From Nitrosomonadaceae bacterium (GTDB lineage Bacteria > Pseudomonadota > Gammaproteobacteria > Burkholderiales > Nitrosomonadaceae): 64,000 bases of DNA. How positions within the stretch are numbered: the stretch's first letter is position 1; each line of letters starts with the position of its first letter. The notes beneath the pieces were generated by a model. That model was not told the origin of the DNA and ran no database searches. It worked only from the letters and a program-made list of their open reading frames with translations. The DNA lies in assembly GCA_030646695.1 (NCBI GenBank), contig JAUSLF010000035.1, positions 1 to 64,000 of the forward strand. Reading direction: 5' to 3'. This document shows, one piece after another, positions 20,465-28,615 of this stretch. A program made the translations under genes and the position numbers.

Positions 20465-21985
20465 ATGTTTGAACAAGCCTTCAGAAATATCGACGACATC
20501 CTGCGCAAGGAATCCGGCTGCACTACTGAACTGGATTACACCGAACAGACCTCGTGGCTGCTGTTCCTGAAATATCTCGATGGGCTGGAGCAGGACAAGG
20601 CCACCGAAGCCGCGCTGGACGGCAAGAAATACGCCCACATCCTTGATAAGCCTTATCGCTGGGAAAGCTGGGCCGCCCCCAAGGGCAAGGACGGCAAGCT
20701 CGATCACAACACCGCGCTGACCGGCGACGACCTGCGCGACTTCGTCAATCAGAAGCTTTTCCCCTACCTGCACGGCTTCAAACAGAAAGCCAGCGGACCG
20801 GACACCATCGAATACAAGATCGGCGAAATCTTCGGCGAGATCAAGAACAAGATTTCCAGCGGCTACAACCTGCGCGAGATCATCGACCACATCGACGAGC
20901 TGCGCTTCCGCTCCCAGACCGAAAAGCACGAACTGTCGCACCTCTACGAAGCCAAGATCAAGAACATGGGCAACGCCGGGCGCAATGGCGGCGAGTATTA
21001 CACCCCGCGCGCGCTCATACGCGCCATGGTGCAGGTGGTGAACCCCAAGATAGGCGAGCGCATCTACGATGGAGCGTGCGGCTCGGCAGGCTTCCTGTGC
21101 GAAGCGTTCGATTACCTCCGCTCACGGTCCCTGAGCAATGCCGAAGGGCTCACTACCAAAGACCTCACCACGCTCCAGACCCGCACCTTCTACGGCAAGG
21201 AAAAGAAGTCGCTGGCCTACGTGATGGCGATCATGAACATGATCCTGCACGGCATCGATGCGCCCAACATCGTCCACACCAACACGCTGACTGAAAACCT
21301 AGCCGACATTCAGGAGAAAGATCGCTACGACGTGGTGCTGGCCAATCCGCCCTTCGGCGGCAAGGAGCGCAAGGAAGTGCAGCAGAACTTCCCGATCCGC
21401 ACCGGCGAGACCGCTTTCCTGTTCCTGCAGCACTTCATCAAAATGCTCAAGGCAGGCGGGCGCGGCGGCGTGGTCATCAAGAACACTTTTCTCTCCAACA
21501 CCGATAATGCTTCCGTGAGCCTGCGTAAGCTGCTGCTGGAAAGCTGCAACCTGCACACCGTACTGGACTGTCCCGGCGGCACCTTCCAGGGCGCGGGCGT
21601 GAAGACCGTGGTGCTGTTCTTCGACAAAGGCGCGCCCACCCTCCGGCATGGCTCAGGGCAGGCGCGCAAGGTCTGGTATTACCAGCTCGACCCCGGCCGC
21701 AACCTCGGCAAGACCAACCCGCTCAACGACGCCGACCTCGCCGAGTTCGTCAAGCTGCAAAAGACCTTCGCCGACTCGCCCAAGAGCTGGTCTGTTGATA
21801 CCCATGCCCTGAGCGAAGTCGAAGGGTTCGACCTGTCGGTGAAGAACCCGAACGGCGGCGAGGCCATCACGCACCGCAGCCCGCAGGCAATCATGGACGA
21901 AATCGCCGCACTGGACGCCAAGAGTGCGGAAGTGCTGGGGAATATCAGGCATGCCCTGAGCCTGTCGAACGGGGCGCTGCTATGA
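20465..21985 (+). CDS. hsdM: Type I restriction-modification DNA methylase subunit (HsdM)
   Basis: 506 residues. The N-terminal helical HsdM_N domain opens MFEQAFRNIDDILRK. The catalytic domain has the SAM-binding motif in YDGACGSAGFLCEAF and the N6-adenine motif NPPFGG near residue 299. It methylates adenine at the site chosen by HsdS and also forms the core of the restriction complex. Unusually, the C-terminal half contains three in-frame repeat-derived peptides: LRHGSGQA after DKGAPT, HALSEVEG in place of a family loop, and HALSLSNG just before the end. Each is encoded by a copy of the GAGCCTGTCGAAG-type palindromic repeat. They lie outside the catalytic motifs. Start ATG 20465 fits the family. 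Confidence 0.95.
   Translation: MFEQAFRNIDDILRKESGCTTELDYTEQTSWLLFLKYLDGLEQDKATEAALDGKKYAHILDKPYRWESWAAPKGKDGKLDHNTALTGDDLRDFVNQKLFPYLHGFKQKASGPDTIEYKIGEIFGEIKNKISSGYNLREIIDHIDELRFRSQTEKHELSHLYEAKIKNMGNAGRNGGEYYTPRALIRAMVQVVNPKIGERIYDGACGSAGFLCEAFDYLRSRSLSNAEGLTTKDLTTLQTRTFYGKEKKSLAYVMAIMNMILHGIDAPNIVHTNTLTENLADIQEKDRYDVVLANPPFGGKERKEVQQNFPIRTGETAFLFLQHFIKMLKAGGRGGVVIKNTFLSNTDNASVSLRKLLLESCNLHTVLDCPGGTFQGAGVKTVVLFFDKGAPTLRHGSGQARKVWYYQLDPGRNLGKTNPLNDADLAEFVKLQKTFADSPKSWSVDTHALSEVEGFDLSVKNPNGGEAITHRSPQAIMDEIAALDAKSAEVLGNIRHALSLSNGALL
21639..21663 (-). repeat. Palindromic repeat, family B, in frame inside hsdM (copy 1)
   Basis: CTCCGGCATGGCTCAGGGCAGG is a diverged copy of the TTCGACAGGCTCAGG unit, opposite in orientation to the two copies further downstream. 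It inserts about eight residues (LRHGSGQA) between GAPT and RKVWYY. Confidence 0.6.
21806..21826 (+). repeat. Palindromic repeat, family B, in frame inside hsdM (copy 2)
   Basis: The unit GCCCTGAGCGAAGTCGAAGG, encoding ALSEVEG, is a clean family-B copy. It interrupts a surface loop of HsdM between WSVDTH and FDLSVKNPN. Confidence 0.75.
21953..21975 (+). repeat. Palindromic repeat, family B, at the hsdM 3' end (copy 3)
   Basis: GCCCTGAGCCTGTCGAACGG lies five codons before the hsdM stop and encodes ALSLSNG. The expected family C-terminus (ILGNIRALL-like) is split into NIRH and ALL around it. Confidence 0.75.
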
Positions 21986-22007
21986 GAAAAACTCAAACCT
22001 TCCCGTT

Positions 22008-22053
22008 CGTCATTCCCGCCTTCTCCGTCGTTCCCGCGAATGCGGGAACCCAG
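22008..22053 (+). repeat. Palindromic repeats, family A, upstream of the GIY-YIG gene
   Basis: A full copy at 22026-22053 has the core TTCCCGCGAATGCGGGAA flanked by CGTCG and CCCAG. A partial copy CGTCATTCCCGCC sits at 22008-22020. The 28-base full copy is identical to the one at 22373-22400 on the other side of the GIY-YIG gene. The repeats fill most of the hsdM-to-GIY-YIG gap. Confidence 0.85.
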
Positions 22054-22082
22054 CAATTAAAAAATGTGGTGATGGTTTTCCT

Positions 22083-22466
22083 ATGAAAAGTCCTGCTGTT
22101 TACATGCTTGCGAGTGGGCAAAACGGCACGCTCTATATCGGCGTAACCTCCGATCTCATCAAGCGGGTCTGGCAGCATAGGGAAAGCGTGGTCGATGGGT
22201 TTACCAAAAAATATGGCGTGAAAATGCTGGTGTGGTATGAGCAACATGAAACCATGGAGAGTGCCATCTGCAAAGAAAAGGCCATGAAAAAATGGCTGCG
22301 GAAATGGAAGCTCGCAACGATTGAAAAGACCAATCCACATTGGCTCGATTTGTGGCCTGAAATAACCGGCCCCGTCGTTCCCGCGAATGCGGGAACCCAG
22401 CAAACTGACAACGATCTGGATTCCCGCCTACGCGGGAATGACGGCTCTTTGGGTGGTGCGCGATGA
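22083..22466 (+). CDS. GIY-YIG nuclease-family protein inside the hsd operon
   Basis: 127 residues. The first ~95 are a stand-alone GIY-YIG (URI) domain of the COG2827 type: AVYMLASG supplies the GIY strand, GTLYIGVTSDLIKRV the YIG strand and catalytic Arg, WQHRES a conserved His, and KEKAMKKWLRKWK the helix with Glu and Lys. The last ~30 residues (from about PVVPANAGTQ to the end) are simply the translation of two family-A palindromic repeats. The stop overlaps the hsdS ATG by four bases, so the repeat-encoded tail couples it to hsdS. Members of this family are predicted endonucleases with poorly known roles. Here it is flanked on both sides by the same palindrome, which suggests a mobile nuclease-repeat unit inserted between hsdM and hsdS. 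Confidence 0.88.
   Translation: MKSPAVYMLASGQNGTLYIGVTSDLIKRVWQHRESVVDGFTKKYGVKMLVWYEQHETMESAICKEKAMKKWLRKWKLATIEKTNPHWLDLWPEITGPVVPANAGTQQTDNDLDSRLRGNDGSLGGAR
22373..22443. repeat. Inverted pair of family-A palindromic repeats
   Basis: Copy 22373-22400 is identical to 22026-22053. Copy 22416-22443 (CTGGATTCCCGCC...GCGGGAATGACG) is the same family in the opposite orientation. The pair forms a BIME-like arrangement with a 15-base spacer and lies within the last codons of the GIY-YIG gene, just before hsdS. Confidence 0.85.
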
Positions 22467-23653
22467 AGGCAGGGTGGCAGACAAAGAAGCTTGGCGAGCT
22501 GTTGGAGGTTCAAAACGGCTATGCCTTCAGCAGCAAAGACTATTCGGACTCTGGGCACTTTGTGATGCGCATCGGTAACGTCCAAAATGGTTATGTTTCC
22601 TTAGCTGACCCGAAGTTCATCAAATTGCCCGCCGACGGTGCGCTAGAACGATTCATTCTCTCGGAGGGCGACATTCTGGTTTCACTCACGGGCAATGTCG
22701 GGCGAGTCGGCGTGATACAGAAAAAACATCTTCCGGCCGCCTTAAACCAGCGTGTCGCCAGAATCAGCATTCGCAAGGATTCACTAGCCATTAGAGAACT
22801 GCTGTTGTTCTTTCTTTTCTCGGATTGGTTTCGAGAAGAACTCACGGTCGCTGGGCACGGCGCGGCCCAACAAAATGTTTCAACAAAGGACCTTGTCGAG
22901 ATTCAGATTCCCATCCCTCCGCTACACGAACAGCAGCGGATCGTCGGTATCCTCGACCAAGCGTTTGACGGCATCGCCACCGCCAAAGCCAGCGCCGAAA
23001 AGAATCTGCAAAATGCCCGCGCCCTATTCGAAAGCCACCTGCAATCCGTTTTCACTCAGCGCGGCGAAGGGTGGATGGAGAAGACGTTTGGCGAAGTCTA
23101 TGACGTTCGCGACGGAACTCACGACTCGCCAAAATACCACGCGACCGGCTACCCGCTCATCACGTCGAAGAATCTGAAACGCAAAGGACTATCGTTCGAC
23201 GATGTGAAACTGGTCAGCAAACAGGATTACAACAAGATCAACGAGCGCAGCGCAGTCCACAAAGGCGACGTGTTACTCGCGATGATCGGAACGATTGGCA
23301 ATCCAACGCTCGTTGAGGTCGAACCAAATTTCGCGATAAAGAACGTCGCGCTATTCAAGATCCCGAGCGGGCAGAGCGGCGCGTTCCTGAAACATTACTT
23401 GGATTCAGGTTGGGTCATTTCAAAGATGGTGAAGGAAGCCAAGGGCACGACGCAAAAATTCGTTGGCCTCGGTTATCTTCGTGGTTTTCCAATCAATGTG
23501 CCGCTGCTTGCGACACAACTCGAAGTTGTCGAAAAGCTCGACGACCTCCACGCAAAAACCCAACGCCTCGAATCTCTCTACCAGCAAAAGCTCGCCGCGC
23601 TGGAGGCGTTGAAAAAGTCGCTGCTGCATCAGGCTTTCTCGGGGGAGTTGTGA
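22463..23653 (+). CDS. hsdS: Type I restriction-modification specificity subunit (HsdS)
   Basis: 396 residues with the usual two half-repeats. Target-recognition domain 1 (residues ~1-155) opens WQTKKLGELLEVQNGYAF and ends at the conserved IPIPPLHEQQRIVGIL. A coiled-coil spacer (ILDQAFDGIATAKASAEKNL) follows, then recognition domain 2 (WMEKTFGEVYDVRDGT to FPINVPLLATQ) and a second coiled coil ending in LLHQAFSGEL. It sets the bipartite DNA target for HsdM and HsdR. The last ~95 bases recur, fused to an hsdR-like start, at 24334-24444, marking past recombination here. Confidence 0.95.
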   Translation: MKAGWQTKKLGELLEVQNGYAFSSKDYSDSGHFVMRIGNVQNGYVSLADPKFIKLPADGALERFILSEGDILVSLTGNVGRVGVIQKKHLPAALNQRVARISIRKDSLAIRELLLFFLFSDWFREELTVAGHGAAQQNVSTKDLVEIQIPIPPLHEQQRIVGILDQAFDGIATAKASAEKNLQNARALFESHLQSVFTQRGEGWMEKTFGEVYDVRDGTHDSPKYHATGYPLITSKNLKRKGLSFDDVKLVSKQDYNKINERSAVHKGDVLLAMIGTIGNPTLVEVEPNFAIKNVALFKIPSGQSGAFLKHYLDSGWVISKMVKEAKGTTQKFVGLGYLRGFPINVPLLATQLEVVEKLDDLHAKTQRLESLYQQKLAALEALKKSLLHQAFSGEL

Positions 23654-23701
23654 ACAACCTCAGTTGTCCTATCAAGTCCGGCATGACGTGCGCTGAAGGT
23701 G

Positions 23702-23743
23702 TTGCATGTAACAAAAAACTGGTTACTATGTGTTTCATGTAAC
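23702..23743 (+). promoter_or_regulatory. Promoter and repeated motif before the toxin-antitoxin pair
   Basis: TTGCAT (23702-23707), a 16-base spacer and TACTAT (23724-23729) form a plausible sigma-70 promoter. CATGTAAC occurs at 23705-23712 and 23736-23743, flanking the -10, with a related GGTTACTATG between. These could be operator half-sites for autoregulation by the antitoxin. GGAGGT follows eight bases before the ATG. Confidence 0.5.
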
Positions 23744-23763
23744 GCTGAATGTTGGAGGTAATC

Positions 23764-23976
23764 ATGAAAGCAAGTACATCGGCGCAAGTGCAGAAGCATC
23801 GCGCTGCGCTGCGGGCTTCCGGGCTGCGTCCGGTGCAGATTTGGGTGCCGGATACGCGGCGCGCAGGCTTTGTTGAGGAGTGCCGCCGCCAGTCGCAGCT
23901 TGTGCAGGGCGATGTGCATGAACGGGAAGCTGCGGATTGGCTTGAGGCAGTAGCCGACCGCGAAGACTGGCAATGA
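23764..23976 (+). CDS. MazE-type antitoxin (DUF3018-like)
   Basis: 70 residues from the ATG after GGAGGTAATC. The sequence KHRAALRASGLRPVQIWVPD, then TRRAGFVEECRRQSQLV, is the hallmark of the short antitoxins of the DUF3018 type that accompany MazF/PemK toxins. The N-terminal half should bind DNA and autoregulate; the acidic, Trp-rich end (REAADWLEAVADREDW) should occupy the toxin. It overlaps the toxin gene by four bases (ATGA), a standard toxin-antitoxin arrangement. Confidence 0.88.
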   Translation: MKASTSAQVQKHRAALRASGLRPVQIWVPDTRRAGFVEECRRQSQLVQGDVHEREAADWLEAVADREDWQ

Positions 23977-24296
23977 GGCGTGGCGATCTGGTGACGGTGG
24001 CCTTGCAAGGCGATCTTGGCAGACCGCGCCCAGCGCTGGTCATGCAATCCGATCTGTTCGATACGCATTCTTCCATAACGATTTTGCCGGTAACTAGCGA
24101 ATTGCGCGATGCACCGTTGTTTCGCATTGCCGTGAATCCTAATGAATTAAACGGTCTAGTCAGACCTTCGCAGGTGATGGTGGATAAGCCGCAATCCATC
24201 GCGCACGAAAAGATCGGAGCGGTAATAGGTCGCCTGGACGATGAGACGATGTTGGCGGTGAATCGGGCGCTGGCGGTTTTCTTGGGATTCGCTTGA
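23973..24296 (+). CDS. MazF/PemK-type mRNA interferase toxin
   Basis: 107 residues of the PemK/MazF fold: start MRRGDLVTVALQGDLGRPRPAL with the conserved R-x-R-P-A segment, ILPVTSEL in the core, and SQVMVDKPQSIAHEKIG, the strand with the usual catalytic surroundings. Family members cleave mRNA at short motifs and are neutralised by MazE. It is coupled to the antitoxin. The pair sits between hsdS and fic, where it could stabilise the restriction locus by addiction. Confidence 0.9.
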   Translation: MRRGDLVTVALQGDLGRPRPALVMQSDLFDTHSSITILPVTSELRDAPLFRIAVNPNELNGLVRPSQVMVDKPQSIAHEKIGAVIGRLDDETMLAVNRALAVFLGFA

Positions 24297-24333
24297 CGGA
24301 TAACTTGACTCATACTTGACACATTGTGAACCA

Positions 24334-24444
24334 GTGAACGAAGCCGAAACCCAACGCCTCGAATCCCTCTACCAGCGCAAACTCACCGCGCTGGAGGCGT
24401 TGAAAAAGTCGCTGCTGCACCAAGCTTTCAATGGAAAGCTATGA
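24334..24444 (+). pseudogene. Scar: hsdR 5' end fused to hsdS 3' end
   Basis: GTGAACGAAGCCGAAACCC (24334-24352) matches the first 18 bases after the A of the hsdR ATG (25911 onward). It runs directly into CAACGCCTCGAATC and the rest of the hsdS C-terminal coding end (compare 23560-23653), finishing with LLHQAF and a TGA at 24442-24444. The switch lies within the shared bases AAACCC, as expected for a microhomology join. Only about 36 codons remain, so it is not a working subunit. Confidence 0.8.
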
Positions 24445-24466
24445 CGGCAATAGCCCGCCAATTATT

Positions 24467-24493
24467 CATACTTGTTTTATAGAAACAAGTATG
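24467..24493. promoter_or_regulatory. 11-bp palindrome upstream of fic, probable operator
   Basis: CATACTTGTTT (24467-24477) and AAACAAGTATG (24483-24493) form a perfect inverted repeat around TATAG. There is no following U-tract, so a terminator is unlikely. It is 49 bases upstream of the fic ATG. The Fic protein ends in a winged-helix-like segment, so self-repression is plausible. Confidence 0.55.
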
Positions 24494-24542
24494 AGAAACT
24501 TGGCGACTACGCTAGTGTTCTATTTTTACTTGGATATTTTCA

Positions 24543-25907
24543 ATGCGATTACCGGTAGCACCCCCGAGTTTTGAAGCCCTGTTGAGCGATACGGTCGCGC
24601 AAGGGGCGGATGAATTGTGTCGGGTGCTCGGCGCCTTTACCGAAGTGGACATGCAAGGCCGCTACCTGCACTGGGACAAAATGCGACATCGTCCCCCGCC
24701 CGAAGGTTTTAGCTCAGAACAATGGTGGCTGGGCGTCAAGATGGCCCGGCGCATGAACTATAAGTCGCTACCCCTGCGAGACAAACGAAATCTGGCATTT
24801 TGCTACTGCTTGCCAGCGATCGTGCAAAAAGAATTGCATTGGTTGGACCGGCACGCGTCCGGTTCGATTCAGGCCGAAGAGGCGATCACCGATCCGCAAA
24901 TGCGGAATACCTATTTGATTAGCAGCCTAATCGAGGAAGCCATCAGCTCCAGCCAACTGGAGGGCGCGTCAACCACACAAAACGTGGCCAAGGAAATGAT
25001 TCGTCAGGGGCGCACACCGCGTAACAAAAGCGAGCAGATGGTCATCAACAACTATCAGGCGATGCATTTTATTCGTGAATACAAGAACGAGCCGTTGACA
25101 CCATCATTGGTGTTTGAGCTTCAACGTATGCTGACCCAAAGCACCTTGGATAATGAAGATCAGGCGGGGCGATTCCGTCGCGTGAACGAAGACATCAAAG
25201 TGATGGACAACGTCAGCCACATCGTACTGCATGAGCCGCCACCCGCGCATGAATTGCCTAACCGTATGCAGGCGCTGTGCGATTTTTCCAATACCGACAC
25301 AATGCAATCCGGCAATGCAGGTACCTTTTTGCATCCCGTAATAAAAGCCATCGTGTTGCATTTTATGCTGGGCTACGATCACCCATTTTGTGATGGAAAC
25401 GGCAGAACAGCGCGCGCCTTGTTCTATTGGGCGATGGCAAAGCAAGGCTACTGGCTGGCGGAGTTTATTTCAATCTCGCATATCATTAAGCAAAGCCCGG
25501 CGCAGTACGGCCAGGCATATCTGTACACGGAAACCGACGACAACGATTTGACCTACTTTTTGGTTTATCAACTGGATGTGATTCATAAAGCGGTTACCGC
25601 TTTGCATGAGTTTCTGCACAAGAAAGTTCGCGATATTAACGAAGCCGAAAAGATGCTGACACAGAACGCGTACTTGAAGGATCGACTGAACTTCCGGCAG
25701 TTGACACTGCTGCGCCATGCCCTGAAGCATCCGCGTTTCGCTTACGTAATCGAGGAACATCAACGCTCCCACGGGATCTCGTATGATGTGGCACGTAAAG
25801 ACCTCCTGTTTATGGCAGATGAGCTAAAACTGCTGACCAAAACTAAAGACGGAAAACGTTATCTGTTTGTAGCCCCTGAAGATCTTGAGCTGAGAATTTG
25901 CAAATAA
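24543..25907 (+). CDS. Fic-domain protein (AMPylase-type) with N-terminal inhibitory motif
   Basis: 454 residues. The Fic core motif HPFCDGNGRTAR lies near residue 280 and contains the catalytic His and the phosphate-binding Gly-Asn-Gly-Arg. An inhibitory helix motif SSQLEG (S-x-x-x-E-G) is near residue 140, N-terminal to the core, so this is a class II Fic that should be autoinhibited by its Glu. The C-terminal part (KHPRFAYVIEEHQRSHGISYDVARKD, described by its ends) reads as a winged helix. Fic enzymes transfer AMP, UMP or phosphate groups to proteins; the target is unknown. The gene sits between the toxin-antitoxin pair and hsdR, two bases before the hsdR ATG, so they are likely co-transcribed. 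Confidence 0.93.
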   Translation: MRLPVAPPSFEALLSDTVAQGADELCRVLGAFTEVDMQGRYLHWDKMRHRPPPEGFSSEQWWLGVKMARRMNYKSLPLRDKRNLAFCYCLPAIVQKELHWLDRHASGSIQAEEAITDPQMRNTYLISSLIEEAISSSQLEGASTTQNVAKEMIRQGRTPRNKSEQMVINNYQAMHFIREYKNEPLTPSLVFELQRMLTQSTLDNEDQAGRFRRVNEDIKVMDNVSHIVLHEPPPAHELPNRMQALCDFSNTDTMQSGNAGTFLHPVIKAIVLHFMLGYDHPFCDGNGRTARALFYWAMAKQGYWLAEFISISHIIKQSPAQYGQAYLYTETDDNDLTYFLVYQLDVIHKAVTALHEFLHKKVRDINEAEKMLTQNAYLKDRLNFRQLTLLRHALKHPRFAYVIEEHQRSHGISYDVARKDLLFMADELKLLTKTKDGKRYLFVAPEDLELRICK

Positions 25908-25909
25908 AG

Positions 25910-28615
25910 ATGAACGAAGCCGAAACCCGCGCCGAACACATCGACCCTGCGCTCAAGGCGGCAGGCTGGGGGGTGGTCGAGGGCAGCCGCATCCGCCGCG
26001 AGATCATCACCCTTGGCCGCCTGCAAGACGCCGGACAACGTGCCAAACCGGAAATTGCCGATTACGTGCTGGTGTACCGTAATCGCAAACTGGCCGTGGT
26101 TGAGGCGAAAGCCTGGGATAAGCCCTATACCGAAGGGGTCGCGCAGGCCAAAGCGTATGCCGGCAAAATGGCCATCCGCTACACCTACGCCACCAACGGC
26201 CAGAAAATTTACGGCATCGACATGCAGACGGGGCATGAGGGGGATGTGGCCGCTTTTCCCTCACCGGATGAATTATGGGCGATGACCTTCGCCGAAGCGA
26301 ACGCATGGCGCGACCGTTTCGCCGCCGTGCCGTTCGAGGACAAGGGTGGCTCGCATCCCGGCCGCTACTACCAAGACATCGCCGTCGAGCGGGTGATGGA
26401 AGCCATTGCGGAAGATCAGATGCGCATCCTGCTCACGCTGGCTACCGGCACCGGCAAGACTTTCATCGCTTTCCAGATCGCCTGGAAGCTGTTTCATAGC
26501 CGCTGGAACCTCAATCGCGACGCGGGGCGCAGACCGCGCATCCTGTTCCTGGCTGATCGCAACATCCTCGCCAACCAAGCCTACAACGCCTTCTCCACCT
26601 TTCCCGAAGATGCGCTGGTGCGGATCGCGCCAGAAGATATCCGCAAGAAGGGGCGTGTCCCCAAGAACGGCAGCATCTTCTTCACCATCTTTCAGACTTT
26701 CATGGCTTCGGCAGGCTCAGCCACCGGGCCTCAGTCTAACGTGGAGACGCATTTTGATGAAATATCCGAGATCAAGGATGCCTTTGGCTACATGTATCTC
26801 CTCGAATGCGCAGATGGGAGCCTTTACACGGGGAGCACTACAAACCTGCGAGCGCGTCTACAGCAGCACAATGATCAAGAAGGTGCACGGCACACGGCTA
26901 CACGCGGGCCGGTCAAACTCATCTATTACGAGACCTTCGACCGCATTGATGAGGCATTTGCCCGGGAAAAGCAGGTGCAAGGTTGGGGCAGAGAGAAAAA
27001 GGCCGCGCTGACCAAAGGCAACATCGATCTCCTCAAACAATTGTCACGGGGCAGATCGGTCCCTGAGCCTGTTGAAGCGGCGGTCCCCGAGCCTGTCGAA
27101 GCGGCGGTCCCAGAGCCTGTCGAGGGGTATTTTGGTGACTACCCGCCGGACTTCTTTGATTTCATCATCATTGATGAGTGCCATCGTGGCGGAGCGAATG
27201 ATGAAAGCAACTGGCGCGACATCCTGGAGTATTTTGCCCCCGCCGTGCAGCTTGGCCTGACCGCCACGCCCAAGCGCAAGGACAACGTGGATACCTATGC
27301 CTACTTCGGCGAGCCGGTGTATGTCTACTCGCTCAAGGAAGGCATCAATGACGGTTTTCTCACCCCATTCCGCGTCAGGCAATATGCCACGACGCTGGAC
27401 GAGTACGTTTACACCTCCGATGACAAACTGGTCGAAGGCGAAATCGAGGCTGGCAAACTTTACGAAGAAAAAGATTTCAACTGCAGCATTGAAATCGTCG
27501 AGCGTGAAAAGTACCGCGTCAAACTTTTCATGGAGAGCATCGACCAGCGCGAAAAAACGCTGGTGTTCTGCGCCAACCAGGGGCATGCCTTGCTGGTGCG
27601 GGATTTGATCAATCAGACCAAGACCGTTACCGACCCGTGCTACTGCGTGCGTGTCACCGCCGATGACGGCGAACGTGGCGAGCAATTCCTGCGGGATTTC
27701 CAGGACAACGAAAAAACCATACCCACCATTCTGACCACCTCACAGAAACTCTCTACCGGCGTGGATGCCCGCAACATTCGCAATATCGTGCTGCTGCGGC
27801 CGATCAATTCCATGATCGAATTCAAGCAGATTATCGGACGCGGCACACGCCTGTATGACGGCAAGGATTACTTCACGATCTACGACTTCGTGAAAGCACA
27901 TCACCATTTCAGCGACGCGGAGTGGGATGGCGAACCGCTTGAGCCGGAAGCGAAGGAAGCCTGGCCGGTGCTCGCGCTGCGTCCGCCTGCCGAGGCACGA
28001 GAACCGGCGGCGGAATACCAGAAGCGGGAGAAAATCAAGGTCAAACTCGCCGACGGCAAGGCGCGCACCATTCAGCACATCATGGTCACGACCTTCTGGG
28101 GGCAGGATGGCAAACCACTTTCTGCGGCTGAATTTCTCAACATCCTGTTTGGCGACTTGCCGGAATTCTTCAAGGATGAAGACGAGTTGCGTGCGATCTG
28201 GAGCATGCCCGACACCCGCAAAAAACTGCTGGACGGTTTGGCTGAAAAGGGCTTTGGCAAAGATCAACTGGCCGAGATGCAGAAAATCATCGACGCCGAA
28301 AACAGCGATCTATTCGACGTGCTGGCGCACGTGGCCTTTGCCCTGGTACCGCTTACCCGCGAGGAGCGCGCTGCCCAGGCGATAGCGCTCATCAGCACGC
28401 ACTTCAACCATAAACAGCAGGTCTTTCTCGACTTTGTGTTGTCGCACTACGTCAGTGTCGGCGTGGAAGAACTCGATCAGGCAAAACTGACGCCGCTGCT
28501 GCGTCTGAAATATCACGACTCGATTGCCGATGCCGTGGCTGACCTCGGCAAGCCGGATGAGATTGGCAGGGTGTTCAGCGGCTTCCAGAAATATCTTTAC
28601 CAGGAAACAGCTTGA
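25910..28615 (+). CDS. hsdR: Type I restriction enzyme HsdR with an inserted GIY-YIG domain
   Basis: 901 residues from ATG 25910, the start that opens MNEAETRAEHIDPALKAAGW. The N-terminal nuclease domain has the PD-ExK pieces IADYVLVYRN and VVEAKAWD. The SF2 translocase follows with Walker A ATGTGKT near residue 180, DEAD-type IIIDECHRGG near residue 417, TATPKRKDN, and motif VI QIIGRGTRLYD near 640. A C-terminal helical region completes it. HsdR translocates and cuts unmethylated DNA. Between FMA and YFGDYPP, where relatives run almost directly on, about 140 residues (~265-406) are inserted: a GIY-YIG domain and a tail of palindrome-encoded VPEPVEA repeats. The frame is intact, so the fusion could be made. 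Whether translocase function survives is unknown. Confidence 0.93.
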   Translation: MNEAETRAEHIDPALKAAGWGVVEGSRIRREIITLGRLQDAGQRAKPEIADYVLVYRNRKLAVVEAKAWDKPYTEGVAQAKAYAGKMAIRYTYATNGQKIYGIDMQTGHEGDVAAFPSPDELWAMTFAEANAWRDRFAAVPFEDKGGSHPGRYYQDIAVERVMEAIAEDQMRILLTLATGTGKTFIAFQIAWKLFHSRWNLNRDAGRRPRILFLADRNILANQAYNAFSTFPEDALVRIAPEDIRKKGRVPKNGSIFFTIFQTFMASAGSATGPQSNVETHFDEISEIKDAFGYMYLLECADGSLYTGSTTNLRARLQQHNDQEGARHTATRGPVKLIYYETFDRIDEAFAREKQVQGWGREKKAALTKGNIDLLKQLSRGRSVPEPVEAAVPEPVEAAVPEPVEGYFGDYPPDFFDFIIIDECHRGGANDESNWRDILEYFAPAVQLGLTATPKRKDNVDTYAYFGEPVYVYSLKEGINDGFLTPFRVRQYATTLDEYVYTSDDKLVEGEIEAGKLYEEKDFNCSIEIVEREKYRVKLFMESIDQREKTLVFCANQGHALLVRDLINQTKTVTDPCYCVRVTADDGERGEQFLRDFQDNEKTIPTILTTSQKLSTGVDARNIRNIVLLRPINSMIEFKQIIGRGTRLYDGKDYFTIYDFVKAHHHFSDAEWDGEPLEPEAKEAWPVLALRPPAEAREPAAEYQKREKIKVKLADGKARTIQHIMVTTFWGQDGKPLSAAEFLNILFGDLPEFFKDEDELRAIWSMPDTRKKLLDGLAEKGFGKDQLAEMQKIIDAENSDLFDVLAHVAFALVPLTREERAAQAIALISTHFNHKQQVFLDFVLSHYVSVGVEELDQAKLTPLLRLKYHDSIADAVADLGKPDEIGRVFSGFQKYLYQETA
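26704..27127 (+). mobile_element. Putative GIY-YIG/palindrome unit inserted in hsdR
   Basis: Left boundary: CTTCGGCAGGCTCAGCC (26706-26722), a family-B repeat in inverted orientation. Middle: a GIY-YIG domain with FGYMYLLECADGSLYTGS, then TTNLRARLQQHN, and the EAFAREKQVQGW helix carrying the catalytic Glu. Right boundary: three tandem family-B repeats. The unit keeps the hsdR frame. Its repeat-nuclease-repeat structure parallels the separate unit at 22008-22443, but with a different repeat family. No recombinase is present, so mobility is inferred. Confidence 0.6.
27058..27127 (+). repeat. Three tandem 24-bp family-B repeats in hsdR
   Basis: Units begin at 27058, 27082 and 27106, each like GGTCCC(T/C/A)GAGCCTGT(T/C)GAAG. 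They encode VPEPVEAA, VPEPVEAA and VPEPVEG. The period is exactly 24 bases, so each unit adds eight codons and preserves the frame. Confidence 0.9.

Follow-up and report, generated by a model that had tools for sequence, protein, structure and literature searches.

Background

Repetitive extragenic palindromes (REPs) of the CGTC-1 type (dRS3 in Neisseria) were defined by Di Nocera et al. in 2013 as having a stem of 8 bp and a loop of 4 nt (PMC3733652). According to that paper, no transposase or partner enzyme had been found for CGTC REPs, and which enzyme, if any, makes or spreads them, dRS3 included, was left open. The present analysis concerns a type I restriction-modification (RM) operon of a Nitrosomonadaceae bacterium, located in a stretch of 64,000 nucleotides of contig JAUSLF010000035.1 (hereafter the window), in which two GIY-YIG nucleases, one free-standing (nuclease A) and the other embedded in HsdR (domain B, or nuclease B), are each accompanied by short repeats. 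A 2025 paper in Nature Communications reportedly describes Ssn, a group of GIY-YIG site-specific single-strand nucleases, together with their repeat in Neisseria. A GIY-YIG domain has also been noticed in another type I HsdR, MCA0838 of Methylococcus capsulatus, as an insertion that is missing in a close homologue (PMC1564403).

The genes of the operon, all on the + strand, succeed each other in the order hsdM, nuclease A, hsdS, a MazE/MazF-like pair, fic and hsdR. From the comparisons reported below, we consider it probable that this EcoAI-type operon harbors two Ssn-like units, each made of a GIY-YIG nuclease and its own repeat, and we infer specific binding and nicking of the repeats, as well as their spread. 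Unit A is a CGTC-1 REP (dRS3-type) unit placed between hsdM and hsdS. Unit B belongs to a second nuclease clade, with the repeat TGAGCYTGTCGAA, and lies in frame in a loop of the HsdR helicase. The source assembly measures 2.16 Mb in 81 contigs and is 89% complete; the window is on the contig that we number C6.

Nuclease A and its repeat family

Nuclease A (22083..22466, + strand) is a free-standing protein of 127 amino acids, encoded among three palindromes between hsdM and hsdS, with a PF01541 score of 47.9 bits for a cut-off of 22.6. It is part of unit A, a 477-bp segment extending from the hsdM stop to the hsdS start (21986..22462, + strand), which is missing from relatives in which the stop of hsdM and the start of hsdS overlap. 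The palindromes make up repeat family A, with three 28-bp units in the window laid out as CTGG-stem8-loop4-stem8-GACG: unit 1 (22026..22053, - strand), of the CGTC-1 REP type and with stem GTTCCCGC, unit 2 (22373..22400, - strand), with the same stem, and unit 3 (22416..22443, + strand), with stem ATTCCCGC. Written out, a family A unit with a C stem reads CTGG-ATTCCCGC-loop-GCGGGAAT-GACG. The coding sequence for the C-terminal tail of nuclease A is repeat DNA.

At no more than one mismatch, family A is matched three times in the 64 kb, against 0.02 expected, and its units fold as single strands with z-scores of -3.0 to -4.3 (five folds made). With an 8-bp stem, a 4-nt loop, a CGTC tag and a CCA tail, it has the make-up of a CGTC-1 REP, but it is not an abundant family, because only nine copies are found in the 2.16 Mb of the genome (none for the reversed control pattern). 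Both repeat families of the operon are in fact scarce in the source genome (8 to 9 copies each), unlike classical REPs.

The stem of family A was then compared across loci. When units were selected on their flanks only (CTGG-N20-GACG), 26 matches were obtained in 11 of 31 loci on the clade-A side, and 24 of them pair at all eight positions, versus two of the 10 matches obtained in 8 of 75 control loci. Among 17 distinct units, 99.3% of the cells pair, two-sided changes are present at five of the eight pairs (a number reached in 10 of 500 shuffles), and covariation scores 0.467, compared with 0.155 after shuffling (0.467 reached in 0/500) and at most 0.088 when slid. This comparison shows that compensatory changes preserve the predicted 8-bp stem, together with the 4-nt loop and the unpaired CTGG and GACG flanks. 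The asymmetry of the flanks argues for an oriented, hairpin-like target. A best-hairpin score gave no difference between repeat-side genes and controls (medians of 11.8 and 12.1, p 0.63); it is uninformative because most flanks give some hairpin, and only the flank-anchored unit discriminates.

At the protein level, nuclease A keeps the GIY and YIG motifs, the central arginine and the C-terminal glutamate of the GIY-YIG domain, following the motif description found in PMC1564403. Residues Y7, Y18, G20, R28, H32 and E65 are invariant in 13 of 13 aligned sequences, nuclease A of the window among them. Its residues at the key positions discussed below are K70 and L72; in the predicted structure (predicted local distance difference test, pLDDT, 88.9), residues 70 to 72 form the turn after the helix carrying the conserved E65. 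PF01541 is the sole Pfam match; nuclease A would act like, but is not one of, the HUH tyrosine transposases known as REP-associated tyrosine transposases (RAYTs). Foldseek returned weak matches only, with GIY-YIG folds at the top (best 1zg2, E 0.0023), and a sequence search of the PDB gave none under E 0.01 (best 0.029).

The clade-A gene of Neisseria gonorrhoeae encodes a protein that is 65% identical to nuclease A and has six units within 500 bp; two N. gonorrhoeae genomes contain 137 and 128 copies of the pattern TTCCCGCNNNNGCGGGAA, against 0 for the reversed control. This gene is reportedly the published Ssn. The Ssn work, as reported, would make nuclease A an Ssn member by kinship and would predict single-strand cutting for it. 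Such close sequence kinship with a Neisseria gene beside dRS3, with the same repeat type, holds for nuclease A only. Two N. gonorrhoeae records of 2.17 Mb, NZ_CP119140.1 and NZ_CP119142.1, are plasmids according to PLSDB and by their length resemble chromosomes.

Domain B and its repeat family

The hsdR gene, of the EcoAI family (25913..28615, + strand; NF046051, 793 bits), is split by unit B, an in-frame insertion that lies between FQTFM and YFGDYPP (26705..27127, + strand) and replaces the short loop SGP...P of empty homologues. Within it, domain B (26786..26998, + strand) is in frame with HsdR and scores 61.7 bits against PF01541 (cut-off 22.6). It shares 63 to 69% amino acid identity with its counterparts in the genomes G115, G266, G173 and G295, and its nearest solved sequence relatives are the UPF0213 proteins 1zg2 and 1ywl. 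An AlphaFold model of HsdR with the insert (pLDDT 50.9) was too poor for use.

Copies of repeat family B resemble CTGAGCCTGTCGAAG. One copy stands to the left of domain B (26706..26720, - strand) and three stand to its right with a 24-bp spacing (27063..27077, 27087..27101 and, with two mismatches, 27111..27125, all on the + strand), while another is present in the 3' end of hsdM (21956..21970, + strand). The segments 26705-26726 and 27057-27078 form an inverted pair around domain B, with 82% complementarity. At up to three mismatches the window contains seven matches, for 1.5 expected, and 1 of 100 shuffles reached seven; genome-wide, at up to one mismatch, eight copies are found, against one for the reversed control. 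Among 37 B copies in 29 other loci of the order, the two base pairs closing the 15-nt core are formed at frequencies of 0.78 and 0.73, versus 0.49 and 0.31 from column composition; family B would thus amount at most to a short stem enclosing a large conserved loop. In G115, hsdR (L189:13531-13800) contains a long in-frame tandem array of an 18-bp B unit (VPEPVA repeats) around an assembly gap of 100 N, which shows tandem growth.

Matching of nuclease clades and repeat families

A tree was built from 101 small GIY-YIG domains, comprising the loci with flanks among the matches listed in 150 genomes of the order, and three more. Each locus was labeled according to the presence of an A or B motif within 400 bp, of another de novo repeat within 350 bp, or of none; loci with both motifs, as is the case for nuclease A of the window, received the label of the more frequent one. 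The labels change 16 times on the tree, versus 38.6 times on average after shuffling, and none of 200 shuffles was as low. One branch, with a Shimodaira-Hasegawa-like approximate likelihood ratio of 99 (on a quickly built tree that carries a long-branch warning for L139), separates 41 rows, 37 of them with repeats, from 60 rows, 55 of them without; nuclease B forms a clade separate from A. These 60 rows form a YhbQ-like clade. Of the UvrC loci in the sample, none out of 15 has a repeat label.

At the scale of the 150 genomes, five or more A repeats are present in 11 of 21 clade-A genomes versus 13 of 129 others (p 2.4e-5), and one or more B repeats in all nine clade-B genomes versus 31 of 141 others (p 3e-6). 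The exact A pattern, in which stem base 6 is set to C, is absent from six of the 21 clade-A genomes. Proximity was evaluated on a named set, also the discovery set of the code described below, consisting of the best 80 of 580 candidate loci, from several phyla, given by a search with 13 clade-A proteins; N. gonorrhoeae is represented in it. In 68 of these 80 loci, a GG-N20-GAC unit that pairs at seven or more of its 8 stem positions occurs within 500 bp, and 168 units are near (up to 500 bp) versus 8 farther away (to 1500 bp), a 40-fold enrichment by density. The strict CTGG-N20-GACG pattern, with pairing not required, gave 116 near matches (93 with 8/8 pairs) and 20 far ones (3 with 8/8 pairs). 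These comparisons show each nuclease clade going with its own putative partner repeat. Matching between nuclease clades and repeat families had been set by the original prediction as its own test; it is borne out by the label changes, the 150-genome counts, the 68 loci with units and the prediction of stem base 6 from residue 70.

Alternatively, the small GIY-YIG nucleases may be ordinary repair genes, near which palindromes gather as they would near any gene end. Many repeat-rich genomes are indeed devoid of the nuclease, and REPs lie mostly downstream of coding regions (PMC3733652). However, the absence of repeats at most GIY-YIG loci of the 60-row clade and at all UvrC loci of the same sample, the 40-fold enrichment within 500 bp and the residue-base code all contradict such hitch-hiking, which we regard as very improbable and largely refuted.

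Residue 70 and stem base 6

Among the 68 loci with units, residue 70 of the nuclease is far more informative about stem base 6 than any other position (z 23 for C versus G, z 16 for the four bases), residue 72 coming second. In the discovery set, K70 goes with C in 31 loci, with A in one and with T in one, E or D with G in 24 of 24, and A or V with A in 4 of 4. A rule (K-C, E/D-G, A/V-A) was written down before the class-level sample was drawn; it is right at 59 of 61 discovery loci, both misses (K) being ties, and at 59 of 59 when ties are left out. Residues off the rule are N (with G twice, with C twice), G (with G twice) and L (with T once). An order sample, seen ahead of the rule, gave 9 right out of 10.

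For the held-out class-level sample, 68 of 80 non-window matches were read and two identical to discovery proteins were dropped, leaving 66, near relatives of discovery proteins being kept unless identical. Prediction was right at 16 of 17 loci, the mean after shuffling being 9.8 and the maximum 15 in 20,000. All four non-K loci (E, D or A) were right, and N70, on which the rule makes no prediction, is accompanied by G in 9 of the 10 held-out cases. The single miss has K70 and K72 with a T stem, like L141 of the order set, so that the K-K combination may read C or T. When nearest pairs of C- and G-stem loci were formed among the 113 distinct loci of the three sets, with E, D, N and G all treated as G readers, a broader assignment than in the written rule, 40 of 46 were concordant, none was reversed and 6 were neither. 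The best clade-A tree has 11 stem changes and 12 residue changes. C-stem copies are also more numerous genome-wide in 9 genomes with K70 than in 10 others (p 0.04).

The base opposite stem base 6 is G for Lys, C for Glu or Asp and T for Ala or Val, a pattern that is chemically plausible. Across these loci, comparison shows that residue 70 of clade-A nucleases, with residue 72, covaries with stem base pair 6, and this suggests that one amino acid of nuclease A's family may read one letter of the repeat. The code supports specific recognition only, and not sequence-specific single-strand cleavage. In four loci (L149, L134, L145 and L171), relatives of nuclease A stand beside repeats of other types, including some with longer loops, TCGCAATGAC and CGTCTTTGCGA, which may represent additional families, each with a code of its own.

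Several observations weigh against the reading as two nuclease-repeat units. Units as defined here are present in 31 of the 66 held-out loci, and the residue is covered by the rule in 17 of these; 13 of the 17 have K, and a constant guess of C would score 12 of 17. Two of the 16 right calls are ties, and 14 of 15 are right without ties. T stems accompany K70 K72 in L432 and L141, and the genomes G140 (G70, 123 copies), G026 and G024 are rich in C-stem repeats without having K70. The clade-A tree is poorly resolved, with two independent pairs on starred branches, concordant in 1.9 on average. Concerning the clades, the A clade is also associated with B repeats and the B clade with A repeats, at p-values of 0.04 to 0.01 and more weakly than in the matched pairings, and more distant relatives of A are associated with B repeats (p 0.006). 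The matching nuclease is missing in 13 of 24 genomes with at least five A repeats and in 14 of 20 with at least five B repeats. Overall, repeats and proteins show weak co-divergence (Mantel r 0.25, p 0.04, n = 18; r 0.11, p 0.04, n = 68). A dyad recognized in duplex DNA would give equal counts of compensatory changes. Finally, single copies of family B in the window do not fold (six folds, z -1.4 to +1.0), and family B is therefore not a palindrome family there.

On this last point the original prediction, which had proposed two palindrome families in one operon, each with its own GIY-YIG nuclease, has to be amended: two nuclease-repeat pairs are found and family A folds, but single B copies do not. 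It had also assigned family A to the free-standing nuclease and family B to the HsdR domain. Units of the assigned family do flank each of them, but the division of the two families between the genes is not a clean one, since the B copy in hsdM lies within 400 bp of nuclease A.

Insertion sites

Comparison with related operons shows that both insertion sites, that of unit A and that of unit B, can be empty. Nuclease A separates hsdM from hsdS in G000, G038 and G497, and stands ahead of hsdS at the start of a contig in L301. In G115, G135, G173, G187, G295, G106 and G046, the junction has no such gene and hsdS starts at the hsdM stop; in G241, G193 and G146, hsdM and hsdS are farther apart, with no nuclease A match. 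ATGA is found on both sides of the 477-bp unit A in the window; it may have been duplicated, or may just reflect the overlap of stop and start.

The HsdR loop, between FQTFM and YFGEYPPDFFDF, was compared in 18 close homologues: 11 are empty, five contain nuclease B (G000, G115, G266, G173 and G295), and two contain a translated A doublet without nuclease (G038 and, with one unit altered, G046). Neither nuclease B nor an A doublet was seen in the loop of 12 more distant homologues, nor in that of 29 class-level homologues (tblastn, loops judged by eye). In an HsdR tree made without the insert, from which G266 is absent and in which G295 is only half filled, G173, which has nuclease B, is sister to G135, which is empty, and the starred branches force at least three changes of the B state. 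These changes fit repeated gain, loss or exchange by recombination equally well.

Homing is one process that can produce such a situation: the GIY-YIG nuclease in HsdR would cut an uninterrupted hsdR and be copied in by repair, the repeats being remnants of the insertion. In-frame presence or absence at one codon site, sister species included, is what points to it, and GIY-YIG is a known homing fold; moreover, the GIY-YIG domain of another HsdR is called very recently inserted in PMC1564403. However, in G038 and G046 the same loop is occupied by A doublets and no nuclease, relatives of B are found outside hsdR with B repeats nearby (L118, L029 and L038), and the domain occurs in the loop of 0 of the 29 class-level homologues. 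We consider homing improbable.

The distribution among operons bears equally on a role in defense, in which the nucleases would be working parts of the restriction system, such as an extra cutting arm for HsdR or a regulator beside HsdS. Although both frames are open in one RM operon, and nuclease A recurs between hsdM and hsdS or before hsdS in the four loci listed above, nuclease B is missing from 13 of 18 close hsdR loci, seven junctions do without nuclease A, and nuclease A is matched by no PADLOC model; such a role seems to us hardly likely.

A possible mechanism

We favor two Ssn-like units, each with its own repeat. In such units, the nuclease would bind its repeat sequence-specifically, and residue 70 would contact the base that faces stem base 6, Lys contacting G, Glu or Asp C, and Ala or Val T. 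It would nick the repeat, most likely when this is single-stranded and folded, during replication or in DNA taken up. The cut ends may be copied or recombined, and repeats would thereby spread either alone or together with the nuclease gene, as REPs do around RAYTs. In a broader proposal, which we put forward tentatively, Ssn-like GIY-YIG nucleases would be the missing spreaders of CGTC-type REPs, residues 70 and 72 would constitute a code, specificity would switch jointly in nuclease and repeat, and units or bare doublets would insert in frame in host loops such as that of the HsdR motor.

The relation between amino acid and base makes the pairing directly testable, and repeat specificity would be predictable from the protein sequence. 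The HsdR loop is a spot of the helicase that two repeat families, with and without nuclease, enter in frame.

Other genes of the operon

The remaining genes are hsdM (20465..21985, + strand; N6_Mtase, 200 bits), hsdS (22463..23653, + strand; Methylase_S match), the mazE/mazF-like pair (23764-24296, + strand) and fic (24543-25907, + strand). The last 98 bp of hsdS (23556-23653) are duplicated at 24347-24444, behind the mazEF-like pair, with 86% identity. Because the G173 operon contains a similar hsdS fragment and a MazF that is 83% identical, the toxin pair may travel within these operons. An inverted repeat with 27-nt arms, 74% complementary, lies ahead of fic (24451-24509). A genome search for GIY-YIG domains gave four matches: nuclease A, domain B in HsdR, and two frames of 92 and 621 amino acids on contig C3, of which the longer reads as UvrC by likeness.

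Comparison with known systems

In the literature searched, no paper on nuclease-repeat pairing turned up, which is no evidence for unpublished status; neither did a statement of the residue-base code turn up in the literature searched, no search having been aimed at the code by name. The label 'undescribed' given to the system by the original prediction is not supported, because a GIY-YIG insertion is on record in the HsdR of M. capsulatus and Ssn with its repeat is reportedly described in the 2025 paper. For the mobilizing role that the original prediction suggested, and for cleavage, the evidence is comparative. Three points look new: the residue-base code, the identification of a candidate partner for the CGTC REPs, and the entry of two repeat families into one helicase loop.

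Ssn, as reported, resembles unit A in that a small GIY-YIG gene stands beside a dRS3-type repeat; the window differs by its few repeat copies and by two clades in one RM operon, one of them inside HsdR. The UPF0213 proteins (1zg2 and 1ywl) are the nearest solved relatives of domain B, and 1zg2 also heads the fold matches of nuclease A; unlike the window's nucleases, they would belong by general likeness among the 60 rows of which 55 are without a flanking repeat. MCA0838 likewise has a GIY-YIG domain within a type I HsdR that is absent from a close homologue, but its position is near residue 800 (PMC1564403); in the window the domain is inserted around residue 264, within the loop preceding the DECH motif of an EcoAI-type HsdR, and has repeats on both sides. 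CGTC-1 REPs, including dRS3, share with family A the 8-bp stem, the 4-nt loop, the unpaired CGTC at one end and the CCA tail at the other; PMC3733652 reports no partner enzyme for them, whereas a GIY-YIG gene is the frequent neighbor here. Finally, the REP-RAYT pairs, or REPtrons, as presented in PMC3733652, also associate a repeat with an adjoining single gene and show repeat-specific matching, but RAYTs are HUH tyrosine transposases, and the enzymes of the window are GIY-YIG nucleases.

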